Below are positions 11,126-46,739 of a DNA stretch of 64,000 nt, piece by piece. Made by a program: the position numbers and the translations under genes. Location: contig NZ_CP091740.1 in assembly GCF_022014595.1 (NCBI RefSeq), forward strand, positions 1,600,200 to 1,664,199, given 5' to 3'. The DNA comes from Solitalea lacus. GTDB taxonomy: Bacteria; Bacteroidota; Bacteroidia; Sphingobacteriales; Sphingobacteriaceae. The notes beneath the pieces are model-generated. The model did no database searches. It was not told the origin of the DNA and saw only the letters and a list, made by a program, of their open reading frames with translations. The stretch's first letter is position 1. Every line of letters starts with the position of its first letter.

Positions 11126-12564
11126 GTGCGTCAGGCATGTTTAATAGCTCTAGGGTGCAAGTCCCGAACTCGCTTTGTAGTGGGAAGTGTTAGCCGACGG
11201 CAAGGGTGTCCTTCGCGAGAAGGAATCTGAAGGAAGCCCAAGGCAAACTCTCGAGCCTACGAACAGAAACTGTATAAGAGGCAGTCATGGCAGGATAAGA
11301 TTGCTAAAGAAATCAAAGTCCCACACTACACAGATGCCATGAATGTATATGCAGAGGCTACATGAGAGGAAAGCGATTAGACTTACCCTGAGAGATCTGA
11401 TAACAATCTGGCAGCGGGAGAAGCGCAACCTAAAGCGGAAACAGCTTGCAGGGATGCAAGCACTGGTGTTATCAGAAGTCAGCAGAAGCCATAGTATTCC
11501 AAGTAATGTTGGGAAAAGGGCTGAATGTTAAAATTGGCAAGGAAACAGCTAAATCATTTGAAGCGAAAAAAAAAAAAGCCGAAACACGTAAGAGAACTGT
11601 CTGCATGAGGAAAGGTCGGAAACCGAAAGTAGACTGCAGAAGGAGCTTAGCAGAAAATGAAAGAAACTGACGGAATTGCCCGAATGCGCTATCGGTTAAA
11701 GTAATGCTAGAGAGAATATTCGACAGAAGGAACCTTGAAAGAGCCCTTGTTGCCGTAGAACGCAACCAAGGGGCAGCGGGTATTGACCATCTGCAGAGCG
11801 ATGAACTTCGCCCCTATGTAAATGCCCACTATCAAGCCCTACTGAAAAGTATACTCCAAGGCACTTATGAGCCACAACCCGTGCGGAAAGTAGAAATACG
11901 CAAACCACAGGGCGGCAAAAGGATGCTAGGAATTCCTTGTGTAGTGGACAGGATGCTGCAACAAGCGGTCTCCCAATGGCTAATTCCACAGTACGAACAG
12001 GAATTTAACGAAAACAGCTTTGGTTTCAGGCCTGGTAAGAATGCCCATAAGGCAGTAATGACTGCCCAAAAGTACCTTAACACAGGCCGGGAATGGATAA
12101 TAGAGCTGGATTTGGAGAAATTCTTCGACAAGGTAAACCACCAGCAACTACTGGGTCATCAGAGGCTGGGTAAACTACTTTAAAATCGCCAATGCGAGAA
12201 GTAAAATGGAGAAACTTGATGAATGGTTAAGAACCCGATTGCGAATCAACACCTGGAGGAGATGGAAACGGATACGAACCAAAGTCTCCAACCTAATAAA
12301 ACTCGAAGTAGGAAAATCATTGGCCTATCAGTGGGGCAACACAAGTAAAGGTGCAGCCAGAGTTGCACACAGCCCCATTTTACTTAGAACGCTGAATATC
12401 AGCTACTGGAAAAAGAAAGGCTATTGGGGTTTTCAGCATTATTATTGTCAATGGCAAGCCGATGGGCAACCGTCGTTATTTTAACAAACCGCCGTATACG
12501 AGAACCGTACGTACGGTGGTGTGAGAGGACAGATAGGGAAATAATCCCTATCTTCCTACTCGAT
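11126..12564 (+). mobile_element. Group IIC intron 1, degenerate (internally deleted reverse transcriptase)
   Basis: The 5' end GTGCG fits the group II consensus. Downstream segments are group IIC domain I landmarks: AGGGTGCAAGTCCCGAAC, GGCAAGGGTGTCCTTCGCG, GGAATCTGAAGGAAGC, AACAGAAACTG. Domain V is at 12488-12520 (ACCGCCGTA paired with TACGGTGGT, carrying a CGC triad). The 3' end is CCTACTCGAT. The second intron at 43007 shares these ends, which sets both boundaries. Insertion directly after a terminator stem is the known preference of IIC introns. The RNA core looks complete by eye, but the encoded protein is broken, so mobility would need a partner reverse transcriptase. Confidence 0.85.
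11704..12484 (+). pseudogene. ltrA: Group II intron reverse transcriptase/maturase, internal deletion plus frameshift
   Basis: The N-terminal part reads at 11704-12183. It begins MLERIFDRRNLERAL and has RT blocks NQGAAGID, GGKRMLGIPCVVDRMLQQAV, NSFGFRPGKNAHKAV and WIIELDLEKFFDKVNHQQLL. Around 12150 the frame shifts directly into the maturase domain, read in frame 2 as YWVIRGWVNYFKIANARS and on to QPSLF, ending at 12484. Against the intact 468-residue relative at 45002, roughly 190 residues are missing, including the catalytic YADD block and thumb. The maturase X domain is kept. It cannot be an active enzyme. A run of 12 A at 11566-11577 lies in the upstream intron RNA. Confidence 0.85.
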
Positions 12565-17741: not shown

Positions 17742-17762
17742 AAGGAACAAACTTAAAGTATA

Positions 17763-19282
<1,520 letters not shown>

Positions 19283-19414
19283 TAGAGAAGGATAGCAGTT
19301 ATCACTAGCTGCTGCGCTATACAATCTCATTTCAGACTTCAACAAGAGAAAACCCAAGTACCGGTAGGAAGGGTAGATGAATGAACAAGCCTACTGCCTG
19401 CAGGAACAATCCAA

Positions 19415-19492
19415 AGTCCCGTAGCTCAGTTTGGTTAGAGCACTACACTGATAATGTAGGGGTCAGCAGTTCAAGTCTGCTCGGGACTACCA
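19415..19492 (+). tRNA. tRNA-Ile (GAT), CCA encoded
   Basis: The acceptor arms AGTCCCG and CGGGACT pair perfectly. The D arm GCTCAGTTTGGTTAGAGC, anticodon loop CTGATAA (anticodon GAT) and T loop TTCAAGT are in place. The discriminator A at 19489 is followed by an encoded CCA (19490-19492). It lies in the 16S-23S spacer as usual. Confidence 0.95.
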
Positions 19493-19534
19493 AAGCGCAG
19501 GAAACGATAAAGCGGAAACAAGCGCACTTAACTT

Positions 19535-19608
19535 GGGGAATTAGCTCAGCTGGCTAGAGCACCTGCCTTGCACGCAGGGGGTCAACGGTTCGAATCCGTT
19601 ATTCTCCA
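19535..19608 (+). tRNA. tRNA-Ala (TGC), CCA not encoded
   Basis: The acceptor GGGGAAT pairs with ATTCTCC with a G-U pair. The D arm is GCTCAGCTGGCTAGAGC, the anticodon loop CTTGCAC (anticodon TGC), and the T loop TTCGAAT. The bases after the discriminator A (19608) are CAC, so CCA must be added after transcription. Confidence 0.95.
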
Positions 19609-19631
19609 CACTGAACCAAAGGGTTCATGAA

Positions 19632-19640
19632 GTTCTTTGA
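19632..19640 (+). promoter_or_regulatory. boxA-like antitermination site, 23S spacer
   Basis: GTTCTTTGA, identical to the leader copy at 17624-17632, followed by CATATTG. It lies about 93 nt before the 23S 5' end. Confidence 0.5.
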
Positions 19641-19732
19641 CATATTGAAAGAAGTTACCTGAAAAGGTAAACGAGCAACAGATAGATTAATTTCTATAAT
19701 GTAAGCATTAAGACGCAAGTCTTAGTAATAAA

Positions 19733-22605
<2,873 letters not shown>

Positions 22606-22681
22606 GAAAAGAAAGCCTCGTTTACCAAAAAGCAGCAGTAACTTCTTTCAACAATATGTCGAAACAGAACTGAAAAGATAT

Positions 22682-22791
<110 letters not shown>

Positions 22792-22800
22792 TTTTTATAC

Positions 22801-33430: not shown

Positions 33431-33649
33431 CCAATACTTCGCTTATTTTAACTACATATGTTTATTTGCCAGCTTCTTTCTTAGGCTCATTAACTGAGAA
33501 TAGTGACGCTTATTTGTCCAATGAATACTATTAGTATACTTCTTTTATCCTGAAAAGTGATTTCTTTTCCCCTGTCTAAAAATTTCTTCTTATAAAATTC
33601 AAGTGGTTATGATTTTGAAAATCAAAAAGTTTACTTTATGTTAGTGGTA

Positions 33650-33666
33650 TAGTATAGAATAGAATA
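33650..33666 (+). promoter_or_regulatory. Candidate operator upstream of susC
   Basis: TAGTATAGAATAGAATA lies 18 bp before the susC start codon. It differs by one base from motifs before the GntR gene (38533) and the GH27 gene (39627). An imperfect -7-like TACTTTAT begins 18 nt upstream (33632). Confidence 0.5.
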
Positions 33667-33683
33667 AACCCAATTTAATTTAT

Positions 33684-36600
33684 ATGAGAACAAAAACTAC
33701 ACTAAAACTGCTAGTACTGTTGGTGTCTGTTTGTGGAGTCCAGATTGGTTCGATAAATCAGTTATACGGCCAATCAGTAAAGCAAACTGAGCTGACAGTA
33801 AAAGGAAAGGTTACCGATGAAAAGGGTGAGGAATTACCCGGCGCTACAGTATTAATTAAAGGAACAAGCAAAGGTACTACCACTGATGTTTCCGGAAGCT
33901 ATACTATTGCTGCTTCAGCAGGCAACACTTTGAGCTTTTCATTTACTGGTTTTGTTACCCGTGAAGTAACGATTGGTAATAATGCTGTAATTAATGTACA
34001 ACTAAAATCTGACTCAAAAGCATTGGAAGAAATAGTCGTTGTTGGCTATGGAACAAAGAAAAAAGTAACGGTAACAGGATCTGTTGCTACCGTTAAGGGG
34101 GGTGACATTAAGCAAAGCCCTTCTGCAAATATTTCAAATTCATTGGCAGGTAGAGCTCCCGGGGTTATTGCCTCCAACCGATCTGGGGAGCCAGGCAATG
34201 ATTTTTCTACGCTATTGATACGTGGAAAAGGAACTTTGAATGATAACAGCCCATTAATTGTAATTGATGGTGTAGCCAACAGAGGCTCTTTTGAACGCTT
34301 AAATCCTGATGATGTAGAAAGTATATCAGTGCTAAAAGATGCATCAGCAGCCATCTATGGAGCTCAAGCAGCAAACGGAGTTATTTTGGTTACAACAAAA
34401 AAAGGAAAATCGGGTAAACCTGTAATTGCCTACAGTGGAAGCTATGGCACAACACAACCAACTCAATTGCCTAATTCTGTAAACGCGGGTCAGTATGCAA
34501 CCTATATAAACGAGGTAAATGATCGTTATGGTAAACCTCACCAGTATACCGAGGCAGATATTCAAAAGTATTACAATGGCAGTGACCCTGTAAATTACCC
34601 CAATACTAACTGGTACGATGCGGTAATTAAAGACAATTCGCTGCAAAGTCGTCATGCATTATCTGTCTCAGGGGGAAATGAAAAAACAGATTTCTTTCTT
34701 TCCGGAGAATATTTAAACCAGGATGGTATTTACCGAAACTCGTCAACCGATTATAAGCAATACAACCTGCGTACCAATGTAAATACTCAGATTTTGCCAA
34801 TTTTAAAAGTGGCGTTTAATCTTTCTGGCCGTTTGGAAGACAGGGACTATTCCAATTACTCAAGTAATAATATTTTCGCGGAAGTATTATCTGCTTATCC
34901 AACTTTGCCAGCTTATTATCCCAATGGACTGCCCGGACCTGGATTGTCAGGAGGGAGAAACCCTGTGTTAATGGCTTCTGGAGCTACAGGATATAACTAC
35001 ACCAATGATTATAACCTGTTGTCAGACTTATCATTTGATATTAAACTTCCATTCATCACCGAAGGGTTGTATGTTGCTGGATTGGCTGCATATGATTTTA
35101 GATTCAGAAATGAAAAGATTTTCAAGGACAACTGGGATGCATATCGCTATAATAGGAATACTAATGAATATGAAAATCTACGCAATTCTATTGGCCCTAT
35201 CAATTTAAGATCTGATTACAGAAATTATCAAATGAAAACCTATAACATTAAGTTAGGTTATAACCGGGTTGTAGGTAATCATGACATAGGTGCTTTTGTA
35301 GCTTATGAGCAAAGTGACAGTTATAATGAAGGCATTTTTGCCTATAGAACAGGCTATTTAAGTAATAAAATTGACCAGATTTTCATTGGTGCAGACAAGG
35401 ATAAGGACAACGGTGGAAATGCTGCGCAAACAGCAAGGCAAAACCTATTTGGACGTTTAAGCTATGGTTATAAGCAAAAATATCTGATCGATTTAGTTTT
35501 GCGCCATGATGGGTCTTACATCTTCCCTAAAGATAAACGTTGGGGGACATTTCCTGGTGTTTCTGCCGCCTGGCGAGTTTCAGAAGAAGCATTTTTCAAA
35601 AATAATGTACATTTCGTTGATCAGTTTAAGCTAAAAGCATCATGGGCTGAATTAGGAAATGATAAAGTGTTGCCATATCAAAATATTCAGCAATACTACT
35701 TGGACGGAGGCTATTATTTTGGATCTGAAGGCGCTCTTGTACAAGGATTGTCGGCTGGAGTTACTCCAAACCCTAATATTACCTGGGAAGTTGCAAGAAC
35801 AAGCAATTTCGGATTTGAATCAACTTTTTGGAATGGTTTGTTAACCTTAAATGCTGATTATTTCATTTCCAACCGTAATAATATTTTAGTTGCTCGCAAC
35901 GCTTCAGTACCAAGCAGTACGGGTTTAAACGGTAAGTTACCTGCCGAAAATATTGGTCGGGTAAACAACAGTGGCATTGAGTTAGAAATTTCTCACCAAC
36001 GAGCTATCAACGAAAACTTCTCCTATAACATTGGAGCCAACTACACGTATACCAAAAATGAGGTGAAGTTTATGGATGAACCAGCTAACGTTCCGGAATG
36101 GCAAAAGAGACAAGGATTTCCTATGGATTCGTGGTTGGTCTATAAAACAGATGGCATTTATCGTACACAAGCCGAGATTGATAATTCTGTGCATTTACCA
36201 AATACCCGTTTGGGTGATTTGCGTTATGTTGACATAAACGGTGATAAGCAAATTACTTCTAATGACAGAATACGAGTTTACGAAGGCCCTACTCCAAGAG
36301 GTATTTATGGCATAACCTTGGGTCTAAATTATAAGGGTATTGGTTTGAACATGTTATGGCAAGGGCAGACAAATGCTCAGCAATTGATTTTGCCTCAACA
36401 AGGAAATGCTATCACTCCGCCCAAATGGTTGTTTGAAGACAGATGGACGACAAGTAATCCAAACGGTTCATATCCTGCCTCTTTTGACCGGAATGATGCT
36501 GTTAATAATCGTTACTCTGATTTTTGGTTGCGTAACGCAGCATTCATACGTTTAAAAAATGTTGAGCTTTCTTACACACTTCCTAAAAGTCTAACCCAAT

Positions 36601-36755
36601 CATTGCATTTGCAAAATGCCCGTGTATTCGTAAATGGGTTTAACCTGTTAACATTTAGTGATATTAAAGATTACGACCCAGAATTGAATAATGTAACCGG
36701 CAGTTATTACCCTCAAACTCGAATTATAAGTGCAGGCGTAAATATTTCACTCTAG
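33684..36755 (+). CDS. SusC/RagA-family TonB-linked outer membrane receptor
   Basis: 1023 residues. A signal peptide is followed by a carboxypeptidase-D-like domain (about 35-115: VKGKVTDEKGEELPGATV). Next come the TonB-box region (about 116-125, LEEIVVVGYG), a plug (about 130-235, SISVLKDASAAIYGAQAANG) and a 22-strand barrel ending in an aromatic-rich strand. It imports oligosaccharides or other ligands across the outer membrane with TonB energy. There is no N-terminal STN domain, so it does not signal to an anti-sigma factor. It is paired with SusD 24 bp downstream; ligand specificity must come from the neighbouring hydrolases. Confidence 0.95.
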   Translation: MRTKTTLKLLVLLVSVCGVQIGSINQLYGQSVKQTELTVKGKVTDEKGEELPGATVLIKGTSKGTTTDVSGSYTIAASAGNTLSFSFTGFVTREVTIGNNAVINVQLKSDSKALEEIVVVGYGTKKKVTVTGSVATVKGGDIKQSPSANISNSLAGRAPGVIASNRSGEPGNDFSTLLIRGKGTLNDNSPLIVIDGVANRGSFERLNPDDVESISVLKDASAAIYGAQAANGVILVTTKKGKSGKPVIAYSGSYGTTQPTQLPNSVNAGQYATYINEVNDRYGKPHQYTEADIQKYYNGSDPVNYPNTNWYDAVIKDNSLQSRHALSVSGGNEKTDFFLSGEYLNQDGIYRNSSTDYKQYNLRTNVNTQILPILKVAFNLSGRLEDRDYSNYSSNNIFAEVLSAYPTLPAYYPNGLPGPGLSGGRNPVLMASGATGYNYTNDYNLLSDLSFDIKLPFITEGLYVAGLAAYDFRFRNEKIFKDNWDAYRYNRNTNEYENLRNSIGPINLRSDYRNYQMKTYNIKLGYNRVVGNHDIGAFVAYEQSDSYNEGIFAYRTGYLSNKIDQIFIGADKDKDNGGNAAQTARQNLFGRLSYGYKQKYLIDLVLRHDGSYIFPKDKRWGTFPGVSAAWRVSEEAFFKNNVHFVDQFKLKASWAELGNDKVLPYQNIQQYYLDGGYYFGSEGALVQGLSAGVTPNPNITWEVARTSNFGFESTFWNGLLTLNADYFISNRNNILVARNASVPSSTGLNGKLPAENIGRVNNSGIELEISHQRAINENFSYNIGANYTYTKNEVKFMDEPANVPEWQKRQGFPMDSWLVYKTDGIYRTQAEIDNSVHLPNTRLGDLRYVDINGDKQITSNDRIRVYEGPTPRGIYGITLGLNYKGIGLNMLWQGQTNAQQLILPQQGNAITPPKWLFEDRWTTSNPNGSYPASFDRNDAVNNRYSDFWLRNAAFIRLKNVELSYTLPKSLTQSLHLQNARVFVNGFNLLTFSDIKDYDPELNNVTGSYYPQTRIISAGVNISL

Positions 36756-36779
36756 TTGTAAGCTCAAAATCTGATAAAA

Positions 36780-38411
36780 ATGAAAAATAAATTATACATA
36801 ATTACTTTAGCTTTTGGTCTATTAACCGGTTTAAGTGCCTGCGAAAAGGATTTTCTTGACAGAAAGCCATTAGACACGTACTCCGAGTTGGATGTGTGGA
36901 CAGATTTAAATTTGGTGCAAACCTATGTTAATTCTAAATATAGAGCCTTGCCCCATGTGTACAATTGGGATGTGGCAAGTGGAACAGGTTTGTCGGCAGC
37001 GTCTGACGAAGGGTATTCCAAATTCAATTACGAAAGTGTATTTCGTTGGAATGACGGAAGTATTACCGCTGATAATCTTTCGATGGATAGTTGGAGTACC
37101 GACTACGGATATATCAGAGACTGTAATATATTTTTTGAGAAGATAGATGGAGTAAGAGGTGAAGAAAGTTTAAAGAAACGTCTAAAAGGTGAGATGAAGG
37201 TGATTAGGGCCTGGTGTTATTTTGATTTGATTTCACGCTATGGAGGAGTACCCCTTATTACTAAAGCTTACACCTTATCGGATACGGCATTTATGGTTAA
37301 GAGGAACACCTATGCTGAGTGTATGAATTTTATAAGTGCAGAGCTTGATGATGCTGTTAATTTATTACCCGCCAATTATAATAGCTCTGATCTTGGTAGA
37401 ATTTCAAAAGGAGCAGCAATGGCACTTAAATCCCGAGCTTTGTTATATGCGGCCAGTCCTTTAAACAATCCTTCAAATGATAAAAACAAGTGGCAGGCTG
37501 CGTCCGATGCCGCTAAAGCAGTTATTGATTTTGCTAATCAGGGCCAATATTCATTATATCAGGGAGCTGATTACAAGCAGATTTTCCTTCAAAAGTTTAA
37601 TTCCGAGATCATTTTGTCTTACGGTATGAATGGCATCAATTGGGAATCATTGTTAGATATTTTCATTAGTCCTAATAGTTATCATGGTTGGTCAGTTTAT
37701 GCTCCTTCGCAAAACCTGGTTGATGCTTTTCAAATGGCTAACGGCAAGTCCATTACTGATCCTGCTTCGGGTTATAATTCTACCAAACCGTATGAAAATA
37801 GAGATCCTCGTTTTTATGCAAGTATTCTTTATAACGGTGCTACCTTTAAAGGGAGGACTGTTGAATATTTTGATGGTGGAATGGACAGCCCTCAGAGTCC
37901 TGTGGAAAACTGGAATGCCACACTTACAGGTTACAATTGGAGAAAATATGCTGATGAGTCAAATGATTTGAATACAAACGGCAGTACACAGAACTGGATT
38001 ATCTTTCGTCTAGCCGAAATATATCTTAATTATGCCGAAGCCCAATTTGAATTGGGAAATGAAGCCACAGCCCTTCAGTATCTTAATTTAGTTCGCAGTA
38101 GAAATAGCGTAAAGATGCCAGCTGTTGTTACCTCTGGTGAATTACTGAAAAACGCAATTCAATTGGAACGAAAAATTGAGCTCTGTTTTGAAGGTCACCG
38201 TTTCTTTGATGTAAGAAGGTGGAAAACGGCTTCGCAAACAGAAAATAAACCATTAAGAGCTGTTAATATTACGAAGAACCTTGATGGATCCTTTAATTAT
38301 ACTTACTATACTTTACAGGAACGTAAGTTTAAGGAGGCTAACTACTTGTTTCCAATACCACAATATGAGCGAGAGAAAAATAAATTGTTAACACAAAATC
38401 CGTTGTATTAA
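36780..38411 (+). CDS. SusD/RagB-family surface glycan-binding lipoprotein
   Basis: 543 residues. A lipoprotein signal ends at Cys21 (LSACEKDFLDRKPLD), the standard SusD start. TPR-like helices follow, with family blocks VIRAWCYFDLISRYGGVPLI, ALKSRALLYAASPLNN, RLAEIYLNYAEAQFELG and ELCFEGHRFFDVRRWK. It acts as the lid over the SusC barrel on the cell surface. It forms an operon with susC and ends at a terminator. Confidence 0.95.
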   Translation: MKNKLYIITLAFGLLTGLSACEKDFLDRKPLDTYSELDVWTDLNLVQTYVNSKYRALPHVYNWDVASGTGLSAASDEGYSKFNYESVFRWNDGSITADNLSMDSWSTDYGYIRDCNIFFEKIDGVRGEESLKKRLKGEMKVIRAWCYFDLISRYGGVPLITKAYTLSDTAFMVKRNTYAECMNFISAELDDAVNLLPANYNSSDLGRISKGAAMALKSRALLYAASPLNNPSNDKNKWQAASDAAKAVIDFANQGQYSLYQGADYKQIFLQKFNSEIILSYGMNGINWESLLDIFISPNSYHGWSVYAPSQNLVDAFQMANGKSITDPASGYNSTKPYENRDPRFYASILYNGATFKGRTVEYFDGGMDSPQSPVENWNATLTGYNWRKYADESNDLNTNGSTQNWIIFRLAEIYLNYAEAQFELGNEATALQYLNLVRSRNSVKMPAVVTSGELLKNAIQLERKIELCFEGHRFFDVRRWKTASQTENKPLRAVNITKNLDGSFNYTYYTLQERKFKEANYLFPIPQYEREKNKLLTQNPLY

Positions 38412-38422
38412 TTGAGTTCATT

Positions 38423-38456
38423 AAAGCAGGATGAATTAATACCATCCTGCTTTTTA
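38423..38456 (+). terminator. Intrinsic terminator after susD
   Basis: AAAGCAGGATG (38423-38433) pairs with CATCCTGCTTT (38443-38453), 9-nt loop, then Ts. Confidence 0.85.
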
Positions 38457-38491
38457 CAATTATGTTTTTATTGAGTTTTCTGATACGTTTC

Positions 38492-38521
38492 TTTGGAGCT
38501 GGTAAAATGTTTCTAAGTTTG
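38492..38521 (+). promoter_or_regulatory. Promoter of the GntR regulator gene
   Basis: The -33 TTTG (38492-38495), 18-nt spacer and -7 TAAGTTTG (38514-38521) match the housekeeping consensus. The operator-like motif starts 12 nt downstream of the -7 box. Confidence 0.6.
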
Positions 38522-38532
38522 TGAAACTGACG

Positions 38533-38549
38533 TAGTATAAAATAGAATA
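38533..38549 (+). promoter_or_regulatory. Candidate operator upstream of the GntR regulator
   Basis: TAGTATAAAATAGAATA, one base different from the susC copy. It overlaps GAATAGTATTC (38545-38555), a perfect 5-bp inverted repeat around one base. It lies between the predicted start of transcription and the start codon, as expected for autorepression. Confidence 0.5.
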
Positions 38550-38559
38550 GTATTCACTT

Positions 38560-39576
38560 ATGCAAAAAGTGTTTGATAAGATTCAGTCTTTAGAAGAAAT
38601 ACCTGGTTTTTCTAAGCATGAGCGCCTTGTGCAGGGCTTTATTAATGCAATTGATGAGAAATTGTTGCGACAAGGGGATATGCTTCCTTCTGTTAATAAC
38701 ATGATTAAGGAAACCGGTTTTGCTCGTGAAACCATTGTAAAAGGATATAAAGAACTAATTGAAAGGGGGATTGTTGAAGCCAAAAACAGAATGGGCTATT
38801 TTGTTGCTAACGAAAATACAAATCAAAAACTTACAATTGCCCTCATTCTGTATGCATTTGATTCAGTTCAGGAAACTTTTTATAATACTTTTAGAGCTGC
38901 GCTAGGGGCTGATGTTCATATCGATATCTATTTTCACAACAATAACATTGAAATATTTGAAACATTGGTAAATAAAGTTGCCGGGCGTTATGGAATGTAT
39001 GTTGTTGCTCCTCTTCCCAATCCGAAAACTGCTGAAATACTTAAAGTATTACCGATAAATAAGTTCTTGATGATTGACCGTTTTGAACAAATGGAAGGTG
39101 ATTTTTCTTATGTTGTTCAGGAGTTTGAGCAATCTACCTACAATGCACTGATCAAACTGAACGATACCATAAAGCAATTTGATGAGTTTGTTTTCTTTTC
39201 TCGGCCTGATTCTGATGCTCCAAAAGAAATATTAGCCTCGTTTAAAAAATATGTTACTGGTATGCAGGTAAATCACTCAATAAAATCAAAATACCTGTCA
39301 GGAAGTGTTGAAAAGGGTAAAGTCTATTTCTTAACAAACGATACTCAAACATGGATGCTGTTAAAAGATTGCAAAAAACAGAATCTTGTTTTAGGTAAAG
39401 ACGTTGGCGTTCTTTCGCAAGATGATGACCCTATTAAAGAGCTCATTTGCGATGGCATTACTACGTATTCAACAGATTTTTCGTTGATGGCTCAAAAAGC
39501 TGCCCGTTTTGTATTAACTCAAGAAAAAGTTAGGGATGTAATTCCTACCATATTAATTCGTCGGAATTCTCTTTAA
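38560..39576 (+). CDS. GntR-family regulator with a periplasmic-binding-like sensor domain
   Basis: 338 residues. The N-terminal winged helix (about 20-88) contains GDMLPSVNNMIKETGFARETIVKGYKELIERGIVEAKNRMGYFV. The C-terminal part (about 90-335) has LacI/PBP-like strands such as KLTIALILYAFDS, GMYVVAPLPN and VGVLSQDDDPIKELICDGITT, so a sugar is probably sensed. This architecture (GntR head, LacI-type body) is common in Bacteroidota sugar loci. Its position inside the locus and the shared operator-like motif suggest that it controls susCD, itself and the GH27 gene. Confidence 0.87.
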   Translation: MQKVFDKIQSLEEIPGFSKHERLVQGFINAIDEKLLRQGDMLPSVNNMIKETGFARETIVKGYKELIERGIVEAKNRMGYFVANENTNQKLTIALILYAFDSVQETFYNTFRAALGADVHIDIYFHNNNIEIFETLVNKVAGRYGMYVVAPLPNPKTAEILKVLPINKFLMIDRFEQMEGDFSYVVQEFEQSTYNALIKLNDTIKQFDEFVFFSRPDSDAPKEILASFKKYVTGMQVNHSIKSKYLSGSVEKGKVYFLTNDTQTWMLLKDCKKQNLVLGKDVGVLSQDDDPIKELICDGITTYSTDFSLMAQKAARFVLTQEKVRDVIPTILIRRNSL

Positions 39577-39610
39577 GGAGAGGGGAATAATAGTAGAAAA
39601 ATAAAAAAAA

Positions 39611-39643
39611 TAGCTTTGTGTTTTAATAATATAGAATAGAATA
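39611..39643 (+). promoter_or_regulatory. Promoter -7 box and candidate operator of the GH27 operon
   Basis: TAGCTTTG (39611-39618) fits TAnnTTTG. TAATATAGAATAGAATA (39627-39643) follows 8 nt later, one base different from the susC copy and sharing an exact 13-mer with it. It ends 9 bp before the start codon. Confidence 0.55.
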
Positions 39644-39652
39644 TAATAGAAT

Positions 39653-40840
39653 ATGTTAAATCTGAATAAAAAAATAATATTGGCATTAACGCTCAGCCTA
39701 ATGGTTTTGACTATAAAGGCTCAGAAATTTGAGGGCTTGGCTCCTAAACCTCCAATGGGCTGGAATAGTTGGAATAAGTTCGGATGCCAGATCAATGAAA
39801 AGATTATAAAAGAAGTTGCAGATGCAATGGCTAGTAATGGAATGAAGGCTGCCGGTTACGAGTATATCGTTGTTGATGACTGTTGGCAAATAGGCAGGGA
39901 CAGTGTAGGAAATATTGTGGCAGATCCTGAACGTTTTCCCTCAGGGATGAAAAGTCTGGTAGATTATGTCCACTCGAAAGGATTAAAATTTGGCATTTAT
40001 TCAGATGCCGGAACGGCAACATGCCAAGGAAGGCCTGGGAGTAGAGGCTACGAATTTCAGGATGCAAGGGCCTATGCGAAATGGGAGGTGGATTACCTGA
40101 AGTATGATTGGTGTTTCCATGGTAAACAAAATTCAGAAGCTTCGTATTCCATAATGAGAGATGCCCTATATAAGGCCGGCAGACCTATGGTTTTAAGCAT
40201 TTGCGAATGGGGCACTACCAAACCTTGGGAATGGGGGAAAAGTGTAGGTCATCTATGGAGAACCACTGAAGATATCATCAACTGCTTTGATTGTAAGAAT
40301 AACTGGGGAGGCCTTGGTGTATTACAAATTATTGATCTTCATACTGAGATTGGCGACTATTCAGGTCCTGATCACTGGAACGATCCTGATATGCTCGAAA
40401 TTGGGAATGGTGTTTTAACCCCTGCCGAAGAACGACTGCATTTAAGCATGTGGGCAATGTTTTCAGCCCCTTTGATGGCAGGAAATGATATCAGGAATAT
40501 TTCGGCCGAAACACTTAAATTACTAACCAATAAAGAAGTACTGGATATTGATCAAGATATACTGGGAATTTCGGCTACACGATGGATGAAATATGGGGAT
40601 TTAGAAATATGGTTTAAACCCTTAAGTGATAATAATTACGCATTTTGTTTAATAAACAGAAGTAACCAATCTATAGCCATCAACCAAGACTTAAAAACCA
40701 CTATCAAGAAATTAAAAGTTGATGATTCATATGTGGTGAGAGATCTTTGGAAACATAAGGATATCGGAACAACCAAAGAGAATATCACGGGTATTATTCC
40801 TGCACATGATGTACTTATGTTAAAGTTAACTAAGAAGTAA
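39653..40840 (+). CDS. Secreted GH27 alpha-galactosidase
   Basis: 395 residues with a signal peptide ending near IKAQ (24). The TIM barrel motifs are PPMGWNSWNKFGC (34-45), YIVVDDCWQ (71-79), KFGIYSDAGTATCQGRPGSRG (112-132, substrate loop) and YLKYDWC with nucleophile Asp152. The acid/base is likely Asp207 in WRTTEDI by its R-x3-D spacing. A C-terminal beta domain covers about 305-395. It removes terminal alpha-1,6-linked galactose, as from raffinose-type sugars or galactomannan. It is the lead gene of a two-gene hydrolase operon under the candidate operator. Confidence 0.92.
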   Translation: MLNLNKKIILALTLSLMVLTIKAQKFEGLAPKPPMGWNSWNKFGCQINEKIIKEVADAMASNGMKAAGYEYIVVDDCWQIGRDSVGNIVADPERFPSGMKSLVDYVHSKGLKFGIYSDAGTATCQGRPGSRGYEFQDARAYAKWEVDYLKYDWCFHGKQNSEASYSIMRDALYKAGRPMVLSICEWGTTKPWEWGKSVGHLWRTTEDIINCFDCKNNWGGLGVLQIIDLHTEIGDYSGPDHWNDPDMLEIGNGVLTPAEERLHLSMWAMFSAPLMAGNDIRNISAETLKLLTNKEVLDIDQDILGISATRWMKYGDLEIWFKPLSDNNYAFCLINRSNQSIAINQDLKTTIKKLKVDDSYVVRDLWKHKDIGTTKENITGIIPAHDVLMLKLTKK

Positions 40841-40876: not shown

Positions 40877-42922
40877 ATGCTTCAAATTCTCAGAAATGCC
40901 CTGTTTTTCATCTCATTTTACATCTGTTGTTTTTCAGTTGGCTATGCTCAAACAAATGTTAATCGCTGGCAAATAGAGCCGGATGGAAGTATTTATTGGA
41001 AAATTGCGGGTTCATCATTGCCACATACCGATCATATCGAAATGAGCGGGCAGCAGGTTTCATTATGGTTAAATTACACAGTGGATACAGCTCAGCAATT
41101 AAAGCTAACCCGTACTTTGGTATTTCCATCATTCAGAATGAAACCGAATGATACCCATGCCAGTTTTATGTATTCTTTTAATGATAGCGATTTACCTCGT
41201 TTTTTTATTGATAACAAACCATTAACAGATGACATAATAAACGGACGCCGTTATAACTCTTTTCCGCAAAAAATTACAGGTATTCATCATAATGGAATCA
41301 TGCAGGTGGATAGTAAGCTGAAAAGGGACGGAACGTTGCAGCTAAAAAGGTATTTATACCCTTCTGTGGATAAACCTCTTGTTATCGAAACTTTCGTTTT
41401 TATTAATAATGATAGTAAACCAGTGAAACTGGAGATGGAATATGCATTTCGAGAATTGAAGACAGATACTTCACGAAGTATCAATGGCCCTCATTCACTA
41501 ATCAGTAAAACATTAAATAATGGGGTTGAATGGGTTCAACCAGGCGATTCTGTAACTTTTTCAGTAGGTTATCAGGCTGTAAAAAATGGAATGAAAGAAC
41601 TAAAAGTAGTTCCCCAGGCAGAAAAATTAGCCAGAGAAGCAAGGGTAAAAAGCGTGGCAAGTCTATTACAATTGCAAACACCGGATGAACTACTGAATAC
41701 AGCTTTTTCTTTTGCCAAGTTTAGAGCAGCGGAAAGTATTTTTGCTACCAAAGGAGGGCTCATGCATGCTCCCGGAGGACTATCATATTATGCAGCAATT
41801 TGGGCAAATGACCAAGCTGAATATGTGAACCCGTTTTTTGCTTTTCTTGGTGATTCTATAGCATGTGGATCTGCAATAAATGCTTATAAGTTGTTTGCCA
41901 GTTACATCAACCCAGAGTATAAACCAATACCAAGTTCAATTATTGCCGAAGGCGATGGTTTTTGGAATGGGGCAGGTGATAGGGGAGATCAGGCAATGAT
42001 TGCTTATGGCGCAGTACGCTTTGCTTTAGCTTATGGCAAATCAGAAACGGCAAAACAGTTATGGCCTTTAATTGAGTGGTGTCTGACTTATTGCGATCGA
42101 AAGAAAAACGCTGAGGGAGTAATCACTTCTGATAGCGATGAACTAGAAGGGAGATTTCCTGCAGGAAAAGCTAATTTATGTACCAGTGCTTTATATTATG
42201 ATGCATTGCGGTCTGCGGCATTGTTGAGCGCATCTTTGCAGATGGATAAAAATATTGCCATTGATTATCAAACTAAGGCAAAGGCACTATGCGCTGCTAT
42301 TGAAAAATATTTTGGAGCTACAGTTGAAGGGTTTGAAACCTACCGGTATTTCAAAGAAAATGATGTGTTACGCTCGTGGATATGTATACCATTAACGGTT
42401 ACTATTTATGATAGAAAGAAAGGTACAATTGAAGCGTTGCTGTCTGAAAGATTATGGACGGAAGACGGGCTGGCAACTCAGGCTGGAGACAAAACCTTTT
42501 GGGACCGATCTACACTTTATGCCTTGCGGGGCATGCTAGCCGCAGGAGAAATAGAAAAATCAATGGCTTATTTAAAGTATTACTCTCAACGTCGTTTATT
42601 AGGTGAGCATGTGCCTTACCCGGTTGAAGCGTTCCCGGAAGGAAACCAGCGACATCTTTCAGCGGAGAGTGGGTTATATTGTAGAATTTACACCGAAGGT
42701 TTGTTTGGAATTCGTGCAACCGGTTTAAGGCAGTTTGAAATGACTCCTCGATTACCATCGAATTGGCCATATATGACATTGAAAAATATCCATGCATTTA
42801 ATACCGTATTTGACTTAACAGTTAAGCGTGAAAAGGATAGGAATATTGTGGTGGTAGTACAAAAGGGCAGGGAAAAAAGTTATTCATTAAAAGAAGGTGA
42901 GGGTATAACAATTAATCTTTAA
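40877..42922 (+). CDS. Secreted six-hairpin-type glycoside hydrolase, CAZy family not assigned
   Basis: 681 residues. A signal peptide (ending SVGYAQ) is followed by a beta-sandwich-like N-terminal region (about 25-250) and an alpha/alpha-barrel-like region (about 265-620). The latter has blocks GLMHAPGGLSYYAAIWANDQAEYVNP, EGDGFWNGAGDRGDQAMIAYG, DSDELEGRFPAGKANLCTSA and TLYALRGMLAAGEIEKSMAYL, then a short C-terminal sheet. The layout resembles six-hairpin glycosidases. The conserved Asp and Glu in ANDQAE and SDSDELEG are candidate catalytic residues. It follows the alpha-galactosidase by 36 bp and probably attacks the same glycan. Confidence 0.7.
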   Translation: MLQILRNALFFISFYICCFSVGYAQTNVNRWQIEPDGSIYWKIAGSSLPHTDHIEMSGQQVSLWLNYTVDTAQQLKLTRTLVFPSFRMKPNDTHASFMYSFNDSDLPRFFIDNKPLTDDIINGRRYNSFPQKITGIHHNGIMQVDSKLKRDGTLQLKRYLYPSVDKPLVIETFVFINNDSKPVKLEMEYAFRELKTDTSRSINGPHSLISKTLNNGVEWVQPGDSVTFSVGYQAVKNGMKELKVVPQAEKLAREARVKSVASLLQLQTPDELLNTAFSFAKFRAAESIFATKGGLMHAPGGLSYYAAIWANDQAEYVNPFFAFLGDSIACGSAINAYKLFASYINPEYKPIPSSIIAEGDGFWNGAGDRGDQAMIAYGAVRFALAYGKSETAKQLWPLIEWCLTYCDRKKNAEGVITSDSDELEGRFPAGKANLCTSALYYDALRSAALLSASLQMDKNIAIDYQTKAKALCAAIEKYFGATVEGFETYRYFKENDVLRSWICIPLTVTIYDRKKGTIEALLSERLWTEDGLATQAGDKTFWDRSTLYALRGMLAAGEIEKSMAYLKYYSQRRLLGEHVPYPVEAFPEGNQRHLSAESGLYCRIYTEGLFGIRATGLRQFEMTPRLPSNWPYMTLKNIHAFNTVFDLTVKREKDRNIVVVVQKGREKSYSLKEGEGITINL

Positions 42923-43134: not shown

Positions 43135-43200
43135 ATAAGTTCCAGGAAGTTATGTAAATTTAAGAAAGAACCCCTAAAATTTTATAACACTGGAACTTAT
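43135..43200 (+). repeat. Inverted repeat overlapping the IS transposase start
   Basis: ATAAGTTCCAG (43135-43145) and CTGGAACTTAT (43190-43200) are perfect 11-nt complements. The right arm includes the first two bases of the ATG at 43199. In RNA this would place the start codon at the base of a stem. Confidence 0.7.
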
Positions 43201-44278
43201 GCAACCACAAGTTAATCAATTAGATTTTAGCGGTCAAAACATTTATGTTGGTTTTGACGTGCACTTAAAAAGCTGGCAGGTTACCGTTATGACTGAACTG
43301 CTCACCCATAAAACCTTTTCGCAGCCACCTAAACCCGAAGTATTACACCAGTATCTCCGGCAGAATTTCCCCGGCGGCACCTATCATTCCGCCTACGAAG
43401 CAGGCTTCTGCGGCTACTGGATCCATAACCGCTTGGAGGCTCTGGGCATTCACTCCATCGTGGTCAATCCTGCCGATATTCCCACCACCGATAAAGAAAA
43501 AGTGCAAAAAGAGGATTCCAGGGATAGCCGTAAAATCGCACACTCATTAAGAAGTGGCGCCTTAATCCCGATTTATGTTCCTTCCAGTAAAACCCTAGAG
43601 GACCGTTGTTTAGTTCGCACCCGGTCCATACTGACCAAGGACCTTGCCCGGTATAAAAACCGGGTAAAATCGTTCCTGTACTTTCATGGCATTGAACTAC
43701 CTGCGCCCTTCACCAAAAAACAGTCCCACTGGTCGAAACCTTTTGTTGATTGGCTGGAAAGCATCGCTATGGCTGAGCAGAGTAGTAAAACGGCCCTGCA
43801 GGCCATGATTTTAGAAGCGAAACATTTGAGAGCCTCTGTATTGCAACTCACCCGGCATTTACTAGAGCTATCAAAAACAGGTACTTACCAGGAAGCCATC
43901 GCTTTACTGCGAAGTATCCCTGGCATCGGATTATTAACGGCCATGACCTTATTAACCGAGCTGGAGACGATTAACCGGTTTAAAAACACGGATCAACTCT
44001 GCAGTTTTATAGGACTCATCCCCTCGACGCATTCAAGTGGGGAAAAAGAACTAGCCGGTACTATCACCCGACGGGGGCATAGCGTGCTGCGCAGCGCCCT
44101 GATTGAAAGTGCATGGGTAGCCGCACGCCTGGATCCGGCACTGACTAAAAGTTTTCATGAGTATTGCCGGCGAATGGAACCGAATAAGGCCATCGTAAGA
44201 ATAGCCCGGAAATTACTCAACAGAATCAGGTATGTATTAATAAACAAACAAGAATATGAGTGTGCAGTGGTTAAATAA
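43199..44278 (+). CDS. IS110-family DEDD transposase (recombinase)
   Basis: 359 residues. The N-terminal RuvC-like DEDD domain has Asp20 (YVGFDVHLKSW), Glu67 (YEAGFCGYW), and Asp106 with Asp109 (KEDSRDSRKIA). The C-terminal Transposase_20 domain begins at LLRSIPGIGLLTAMTLLTEL (about 237) and contains SFIGLIPSTHSSGEKE, whose serine before the glycine (Ser280) is the likely nucleophile. IS110 recombinases insert DNA with an RNA guide encoded by the element. No classical DDE triad is present. Reading frame and motifs are intact, so it may be active. Confidence 0.93.
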   Translation: MQPQVNQLDFSGQNIYVGFDVHLKSWQVTVMTELLTHKTFSQPPKPEVLHQYLRQNFPGGTYHSAYEAGFCGYWIHNRLEALGIHSIVVNPADIPTTDKEKVQKEDSRDSRKIAHSLRSGALIPIYVPSSKTLEDRCLVRTRSILTKDLARYKNRVKSFLYFHGIELPAPFTKKQSHWSKPFVDWLESIAMAEQSSKTALQAMILEAKHLRASVLQLTRHLLELSKTGTYQEAIALLRSIPGIGLLTAMTLLTELETINRFKNTDQLCSFIGLIPSTHSSGEKELAGTITRRGHSVLRSALIESAWVAARLDPALTKSFHEYCRRMEPNKAIVRIARKLLNRIRYVLINKQEYECAVVK

Positions 44279-44564: not shown

Positions 44565-45001
44565 CAAAGCTATATTCACCGTCATAAATCCTATTGCTGG
44601 TGAGTTGCTCTCCAGCAGCGCCCACTTCCTCTTCGGATTTATATCACAAAGGTAATCATTAAAAAAACTTCCAGATCTCTTGCTTTACAACATAGAAGGA
44701 AGCTTGAGGCAAATCCCTGAACCGAGGCACACGAACCCTATCAGGCATATCCAGCAGGATGAGATTGCAACACAAATCGAAGTCCAATAACTACCCGGAT
44801 ACTGGAGTGTAAATAAGGCGGTTACATGGGGAGAAAGTGTATAGGTTTACCACGGGAGGTCTGACAGACGTGCGGAAACAAGCAGTATGAAACACGGCTA
44901 ACAATTGCTGTCAGAAGTCAGCAGAGATCAAAGTACGCTGCTACGAGCTAGCAGGGGAAGGGTCGAATCTTAAGAGGTGAGCATCAAATGAAGGTTACTG
45001 T

Positions 45002-46408
45002 ATGAATGGTAGAAAGCAGAAAACGGAGCAAGACACCTGGCAGAGCGGAACTAGGTCGGCAACCGAATCAAGCTCTGGAGGGCAGACATATCTATGGATG
45101 ACTGAAAAAGGAAACACCAACACAACGCAAGGGCAACAAGCCCAACTTTTGGAGTATATACTCTCACCATCCAACCTTAATGCGGCCTACAAACAAGTTA
45201 AGCGTAACGATGGATCAGGCGGGGTTGATGGGATGAGTGTGGAAAAGCTCTTACCCTACTTACAATCCCATCGAGAAGTATTGCTTCATTCACTACAAAA
45301 TGGGAGGTACAAGCCTCAAGCTGTTCGCCGGGTTGAAATACCCAAAGAGAACGACAAAAAGCGAGCTTTAGGCATCCCTACGGTAGTGGATAGAGTCATT
45401 CAGCAGGCAATCACCCAACAATTAACACCTATTTACGAAAAACAGTTCTCGTCCAACAGTTACGGTTTTCGTCCAAAACGCAGTGCTCATCAGGCCATAA
45501 AGCAGTGCCAAACCAACGCAAACGAAGGTTATCGTTACGTTGTGGACATGGATTTGGAGAAATTCTTTGATATTGTTAACCAAAGCAGGCTGATAGAGAT
45601 TTTATCCCGAACCATTGAAGATGGCAGGGTAGTATCATTGATACATAAATACCTAAAAGCAGGCGTAATGGTACAGGGAAAATTTCAAGAGACATCGATG
45701 GGAGTTCCGCAAGGAGGAAACCTAAGTCCGCTGTTGAGCAATGTAATGCTCAACGAACTGGACAAGGAACTAAAGGAAAGAGGACATCGTTTTGTCAGAT
45801 ACGCTGACGACTGTATGGTATTCTGTAAAAGCCGCCGAGCCGCCCAGAGGGTGCTTGTCAGCCTTACCAACTACATCGAACAAAAGCTTTATCTGAAAGT
45901 AAATAGAGAGAAAACCACAGTTGCACACATCAAGGACGTTAAGTTCTTGGGGTATGGATTTTACTTCAACAAAAATGGTTGCAAAATGCGCGCCCATAAG
46001 AAAAGTGTTGAAAAGATGAAAGAGAAAATCCGAGAACTGACCTCACGGAGCAACGGATGGGGCAATGAACGCCGAAAGGAAGCAATAAGACAGTACATCA
46101 CAGGCTGGCTTAACTATTTTCAGCTGGCAGACATGAAAGGATTGTTGGAACGCATAGATGAATGGTATCGAAGAAGAATCAGGTCATTGATATGGAAACA
46201 ATGGAAAAGTATCAAAACCCGAATTAGGAATCTGATAAAACTGGATATCCCGAAAAACAAGGCAAAGGAATACGGCAACACAAGGAAAAGCTACTGGCAC
46301 ATAGCTAATAGTCCAATCCTTAGCAGAAGTATCACCAATGAACGCCTTAAGCAGTCGGGTTACCTGTTCTTTACTGACTACTATCAAAAATTGCGTTGTG
46401 TAAATTAA
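45002..46408 (+). CDS. ltrA: Group IIC intron reverse transcriptase/maturase
   Basis: 468 residues. RT blocks are RNDGSGGVDGMSVEKL, KRALGIPTVVDRVIQQAI, SSNSYGFRPKRSAHQAI, VVDMDLEKFFDIVNQSRL, SMGVPQGGNLSPLLSNVML and the catalytic RYADDCMVFCKS. Thumb and X (maturase) regions follow with YITGWLNYFQLADMKGLLERIDEWYRRRIR and YWHIANSPILSRS. There is no HNH endonuclease domain, as is usual for class C introns. It needs its RNA for splicing and for reverse transcription into target DNA. Unlike its partner at 11704 it is complete and could in principle mobilise the broken intron. Confidence 0.95.
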   Translation: MNGRKQKTEQDTWQSGTRSATESSSGGQTYLWMTEKGNTNTTQGQQAQLLEYILSPSNLNAAYKQVKRNDGSGGVDGMSVEKLLPYLQSHREVLLHSLQNGRYKPQAVRRVEIPKENDKKRALGIPTVVDRVIQQAITQQLTPIYEKQFSSNSYGFRPKRSAHQAIKQCQTNANEGYRYVVDMDLEKFFDIVNQSRLIEILSRTIEDGRVVSLIHKYLKAGVMVQGKFQETSMGVPQGGNLSPLLSNVMLNELDKELKERGHRFVRYADDCMVFCKSRRAAQRVLVSLTNYIEQKLYLKVNREKTTVAHIKDVKFLGYGFYFNKNGCKMRAHKKSVEKMKEKIRELTSRSNGWGNERRKEAIRQYITGWLNYFQLADMKGLLERIDEWYRRRIRSLIWKQWKSIKTRIRNLIKLDIPKNKAKEYGNTRKSYWHIANSPILSRSITNERLKQSGYLFFTDYYQKLRCVN

Positions 46409-46739
46409 GAAACCGCCGTATACCGAACGGTACGTACGGTGGTGTGAGAGGTCGGAAAATGAAATAGGAGGAAAACCTATTTTATTTTCCTCCTACTCGA
46501 TTTGACTAAAGAAGGATTCTGATTAGGGAGAATTAACAATATAATAACAAGTTAATTAAACAATATTAATTTATTGAAGATAAATTGTTTATATGGTTTT
46601 GAATACTCACTAACCTAAAATATTTTGTCGTATCGAGCCCATTTAAATGTCGTTTTGAACCTGTTTTTGGTAAATATTTTAGCGTAGGTTTGTCATAACA
46701 ATAAAATATCTATTCACTCATTATTTCTGAAAAATAAAT

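Follow-up and report, generated by a model that had tools for sequence, protein, structure and literature searches.

A YAG array of 5-bp period accompanies a family of GntR-LacI regulator genes and is probably their operator at sugar loci of Solitalea and its relatives

What is the short element that recurs in front of three genes of a glycan locus in Solitalea lacus, and which protein might read it? The locus lies in the 64,000-nt stretch of DNA analysed here (the window), and all of its features described below are on the forward strand. It begins with genes for a SusC-type TonB-dependent transporter (33684-36755; TIGR04056) and a SusD-type lipoprotein (36780-38411; PF07980 and PF14322), which presumably form one operon. 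These are followed by the regulator gene gntR (38560-39576), encoding a 338-aa AraR-like chimera of a GntR winged helix and a LacI-type sensor, and by genes for a GH27 alpha-galactosidase-type enzyme (39653-40840; PF16499 and PF17801) and a 681-aa protein (40877-42922). The last of these gave no match in Pfam or NCBIfam, has relatives at 34 related loci (45-77% identity) and is predicted to fold as an (alpha/alpha)6-barrel like those of GH94 and GH65; judged by that model, it possibly represents a glycoside hydrolase or phosphorylase family without earlier description. Together with the GH27 enzyme, it hints at a galactose-containing substrate for the Solitalea locus. An IS110-family transposase gene (43199-44278) lies directly 3' of the locus. 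The window also holds two group II introns detected with Rfam (11209-12564 and 44680-46501, the second covering a 468-aa ORF at 45002-46408) and a complete rRNA operon (17762-22793; 16S, two tRNAs, 23S and 5S).

A first-pass annotation of this DNA had reported related 17-mers at 33650, 38533 and 39627, preceding susC, gntR and the GH27 gene. A check against the sequence confirmed these coordinates, as well as the single mismatch to site 1 that had been reported for site 2 and for site 3. When up to three mismatches were allowed, the window contained 10 matches to the pattern (2.4 expected), a number reached in 0 of 100 shuffles. The annotation would have abandoned its reading had the motif proved frequent genome-wide; in our scan, run as a pattern search, the exact pattern TARTATARAATAGAATA occurred at three places in the 4.4 Mb Solitalea genome (a single contig), all of them at the glycan locus. 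Allowing up to two mismatches gave 14 places, no more than the 21 obtained with a reversed control pattern. The 17-mer is thus real and present in three copies, but it was drawn too short: it is one form of a wider pentamer array, and all three sites are longer than 17 nt. The array before susC reads TGGTA TAGTA TAGAA TAGAA TA (33645-33666), that before gntR reads TAGTA TAAAA TAGAA TAGTA (38533-38552) and that before the GH27 gene reads TAATA TAGAA TAGAA TATAA TAGAA (39627-39651). No palindrome was seen in the 17-mer on inspection by eye.

Both the arrays and the gene order susC-susD-gntR-GH27 are kept in two of the three other Solitalea genomes. In one of these (G002), the motifs are TAGTATAGAATAGAATA before susC, TAGTATAAAATAGAATA before gntR and TAGCATAGAATAGAATA before the GH27 gene; in the other (G001), they are TAGCATAGAATAGAATA, TGGTACAAAATAGAATA and TAGTATAGAATAGAATA, respectively. 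In the third genome, neither an orthologue of the regulator (at E <= 1e-60) nor the motif (with at most one mismatch) was found.

The position of the arrays relative to the promoters is also informative. The -7 boxes of gntR (TAAGTTTG, 38514-38521, with a possible -33 TTTG at 38492-38495) and of the GH27 gene (TAGCTTTG, 39611-39618) begin 19 and 16 nt before their sites, in agreement with the interval of 16-19 nt originally given for all three promoters. For susC, that interval probably does not hold: the best candidate is an imperfect box, TATGTTAG (33637-33644, with a possible -33 TTTG at 33614-33617), that begins 13 nt upstream of site 1. This box was chosen by comparison with the sister species, in which it reads TATGTTAG or TATGTTCG, the latter in S. 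agri. Across 107 sense-strand arrays lying upstream of a gene, the array mostly starts 11-21 nt past the first base of the -7 box (TAnnTTTG). Judged from these distances, most arrays would sit just downstream of the expected transcription start. An array over the first transcribed bases is well placed for a repressor that blocks the start or the escape of RNA polymerase.

How far does this arrangement extend beyond Solitalea? Orthologues of the regulator (41-81% identity) were present in 88 of 399 genomes of the family, and we set 83 distinct orthologue loci against 33 at which the GntR-LacI gene is a paralogue (26-34% identity); the two sets were clearly separated by score (at least 281 bits against at most 197 bits). 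The arrays at the orthologue loci vary, and include (TAGGA)4, (TAGTA)4, TAGAACAGTATAGAATAG, TAGACCAGAATAGACCAG and TAGTGTAGTATAGTGTAG, but they share a YAG every 5 bp. Four YAG units with a 5-bp period occurred in non-coding DNA at 64 of the 83 orthologue loci and at only 3 of the 33 paralogue loci, and three units at 73 of the 83. At periods of 3, 4 and 6-13 bp, four-unit YAG series were found at 0-3 loci. Of the 32 triplet classes tried at period 5, YAG scored highest, although this ranking is descriptive, the triplet having been picked after the sequences had been viewed, and the comparisons of period and of locus type are the stronger ones. A tally made without any motif likewise gave prominence to periods 5 and 10 at the orthologue loci. 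Most arrays have three to five units, four being the commonest number (58 of 107 sense arrays).

At 10 of the 83 orthologue loci, no array was found within the stretch examined. Seven of these loci belong to one clade, and in six of the seven genomes an exact array does exist, just beyond that stretch at a distance of 9.7-10.7 kb from gntR. Gene content and gene order vary widely among the 83 loci, whereas gntR and the array persist; susC and susD are the only tracked genes that the majority of these loci have in common. A GH27 gene was detected at only five, and other orthologue loci carry a sodium-solute symporter, a trehalase-like protein or a GH36 enzyme. The galactosides or raffinose-type sugars first suggested as ligands are thus not supported as a trait of the regulator family, and we dropped a family-wide galactoside ligand inferred from gene content.

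A few arrays lie beside paralogues, and we regard them as leads only. In two related genomes, 5-bp arrays of the type CAGGACAGAGCAGGATAG adjoin a paralogous GntR-LacI gene (L196, at +15 and +3151 from the start of the gntR ORF; L209, at -109), which may mean that the design extends to other regulators of the family. At L183, a five-unit array, CAGACCAGAACAGAACGGAACAG, lies 27 nt upstream of the gntR start; the regulator there is a distant GntR-LacI relative (34% identity) from another family of the class.

Searching the same 399 genomes with the exact pattern YAGDAYAGDAYAGDAYAG linked the array to the regulator in whole genomes. Of the 75 TAG-first matches, 64 were no more than 12 kb away from a regulator orthologue, in stretches that together account for about 0.12% of the sequence. 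TAG-first arrays were present in 63 of the 88 genomes with an orthologue and in 5 of the 311 without one (Fisher 2e-46, uncorrected for relatedness; kinship among the genomes inflates this p-value and the other formal statistics). The linked arrays vary in sequence and precede different genes, in differing gene orders. This co-occurrence supports the earlier proposal of a single regulator that acts through a shared element, with the GntR-type protein as the candidate. The C-first matches behaved differently: 1 of 35 was near an orthologue, and in 16 genomes that were searched again they were mostly far from GntR-LacI paralogues. C-first arrays such as CAGGAYAGTACAGGACAG recur in many genomes without this link, and we set them aside as unrelated and perhaps coding.

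The protein itself is, on its sequence and modelled structure, a GntR winged helix fused to a LacI/GalR-type sensor. The N-terminal winged helix matches PF00392 (residues 23-82, 30.0 bits against a cut-off of 27), and its helices and wing are visible in the AlphaFold model (mean pLDDT 90.8). The C-terminal sensor scores 26.4 bits with PF13377, just below the cut-off of 26.5, and the best fold matches of the model are LacI, PurR and RbsR; no close sequence relative was found in the PDB. The wing motif reads SKNRxGYF in the orthologues and SVPGKGYY in the paralogues. At residue 56, within the recognition helix, every one of the 54 regulators in the groups with TAGWA and TAGAC arrays has R, whereas all 14 regulators with TAGGA arrays have K56 and G60, and two of the three with TAGTG arrays have G56, both together with A60. 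Because array unit types follow the clades of the regulator tree, only two or three events underlie this covariation, which fits a regulator that reads the array but does not prove that it does so.

An array that covers the 5' end of a transcript could instead act in the messenger, where UAG or CAG every 5 nt of the leader would be bound by an RNA-binding protein or would affect translation. Nearly all arrays are in the sense orientation and within the expected 5' leader, and their spacing is like that of TRAP sites, TRAP being a protein that binds (G/U)AG triplets 2-3 nt apart. Orientation, however, speaks for DNA. One clade (L118-L122, five genomes) has an antisense array upstream of gntR. 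It reads CTTATCCTATTCTATTCC or differs little from it, and it follows directly on TACCTTTG, as far from the -7 box as the sense arrays are; at L171, too, gntR is preceded by an array on the opposite strand. A reversed yet equally placed array favours recognition of DNA over RNA. Furthermore, three of the five genomes (L118, L121 and L122) have a second, conserved antisense array, CTGTACTATTCTATAC, between a symporter gene and susC; its distance from the susC start is several hundred bases, which places it upstream of the expected susC promoter, and it is perhaps an auxiliary operator. No TRAP (MtrB) homologue was found in the Solitalea genome with PF02081, which did detect the Bacillus subtilis control, and the array tracks the GntR orthologue from genome to genome. 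We therefore consider action in the messenger improbable.

Could the array belong to another regulator encoded near the gntR orthologue, or to no protein at all? The loci are gene-rich and their annotation is partial, which leaves room for a different DNA-binding protein. Against this stands the persistence of gntR and the array through all the rearrangement of the 83 loci, and neither of the two genes that recur at most of them encodes a regulator. In several lineages, moreover, arrays precede gntR itself, and the unit type changes with the recognition-helix residues of GntR, both of which point back to the GntR-type protein; a neighbouring regulator is accordingly a very improbable owner of the site. 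Least credible is a simple-sequence repeat whose slippage alters copy number, and with it promoter activity, without a dedicated binding protein. Perfect pentamer runs such as (TAGGA)4 and (TAGTA)4 in some species, and a unit number that ranges from 3 to 5, would suit such a repeat. However, the units of an array often differ in their last two bases and yet retain YAG, a pattern not expected from slippage alone, and the arrays are linked to one regulator family.

We thus return to the GntR-LacI protein, and put at about 0.85 the probability, estimated from sequence comparisons, that the chimeric repressor encoded at 38560-39576 has this motif as its operator. The observations behind this are the array and where it lies, its restriction to one locus of the genome, its conservation and the way it accompanies the regulator's orthologues; from them we infer binding, repression, cooperativity and release by ligand. 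The operator would be a tandem array of three to five YAGNN units (here mostly TAGWA) covering the first transcribed bases. Free of ligand, the repressor would occupy the array in a cooperative manner, each unit being half a helical turn from the next, and so block transcription start or promoter escape. Its putative targets are susCD, the GH27 gene with the enzyme gene after it, and gntR itself, and a sugar bound in the LacI-type domain would cause its release. Half-turn spacing places adjacent units on opposite faces of the helix, and by conjecture a four-unit array could seat two dimers, each on units one full turn apart. A more detailed version, in which at least two interleaved dimers occupy opposite faces of the DNA (units 1 and 3, and units 2 and 4), unit number sets the strength of repression, and spacer bases read by residues such as 56 and 60 set specificity, is tentative and somewhat more likely wrong than right.

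Most likely, then, the YAG array is a repressor site, a widespread switch that travels with one repressor-gene family in Pedobacter-like bacteria. It marks likely targets of that family at about 80 differing sugar loci of the Sphingobacteriaceae, and the regulons of many uncharacterized transporters and enzymes may therefore be readable from sequence. If the model is true, this would be a second GntR system with short direct repeats, with a sensor domain unlike that of NanR, and natural variants of protein and site are available for studying how a winged helix reads half-turn repeats.

In the open-access literature, we found no description of an operator with a 5-bp period, nor of GntR or AraR-like operators in Pedobacter, Solitalea or their relatives. 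According to a survey of motifs in the GntR family, palindromes are the norm; this counts against a GntR operator here, the array being non-palindromic, but the survey also lists NanR, NagQ and FarR as exceptions with direct repeats (PMC4494728). NagQ and FarR resemble our regulator in this respect, but they belong to the HutC subfamily and have longer units (TGGTATT and TGTATTAWTT). For MocR-type members, direct-repeat sites separated by two or three helical turns are common (PMC5320631). Among Bacteroides regulators, SusR-like and HTCS proteins also control susCD loci through direct-repeat sites (PMC3878776), although these are two boxes with long spacing and the regulators are unrelated. 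The nearest parallel in operator design is NanR of E. coli, three dimers of which assemble cooperatively on (GGTATA)3, with successive dimers spaced by about half a turn (PMC8012715). Both systems have a GntR-type winged helix, a response to sugar (probable in our case) and at least three short direct repeats at intervals of about half a turn, three to five units being usual among our 107 sense arrays. However, the FadR-type sensor of NanR, in place of which our regulator has a LacI-type one, puts it in another GntR subfamily, and NanR owes its cooperativity to an N-terminal extension and has 6-bp units; here the units are 5-bp YAGNN, three to five in number, and the phylum is Bacteroidota. 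By analogy, the regulator may work like NanR, but it is not NanR. AraR operators are palindromic, whereas the array consists of direct repeats with a 5-bp period and lacks a palindrome with a GT...AC core. What AraR of Bacillus subtilis does share with our regulator is its domain order, as a GntR-LacI/GalR chimera, and the control of sugar genes (PMC4494728, PMC4218819); the regulator is AraR-like by its domains only, and we do not file it as AraR. In summary, the operator design is like that of NanR and the domains are like those of AraR, and by the features compared the regulator is a member of neither subfamily.
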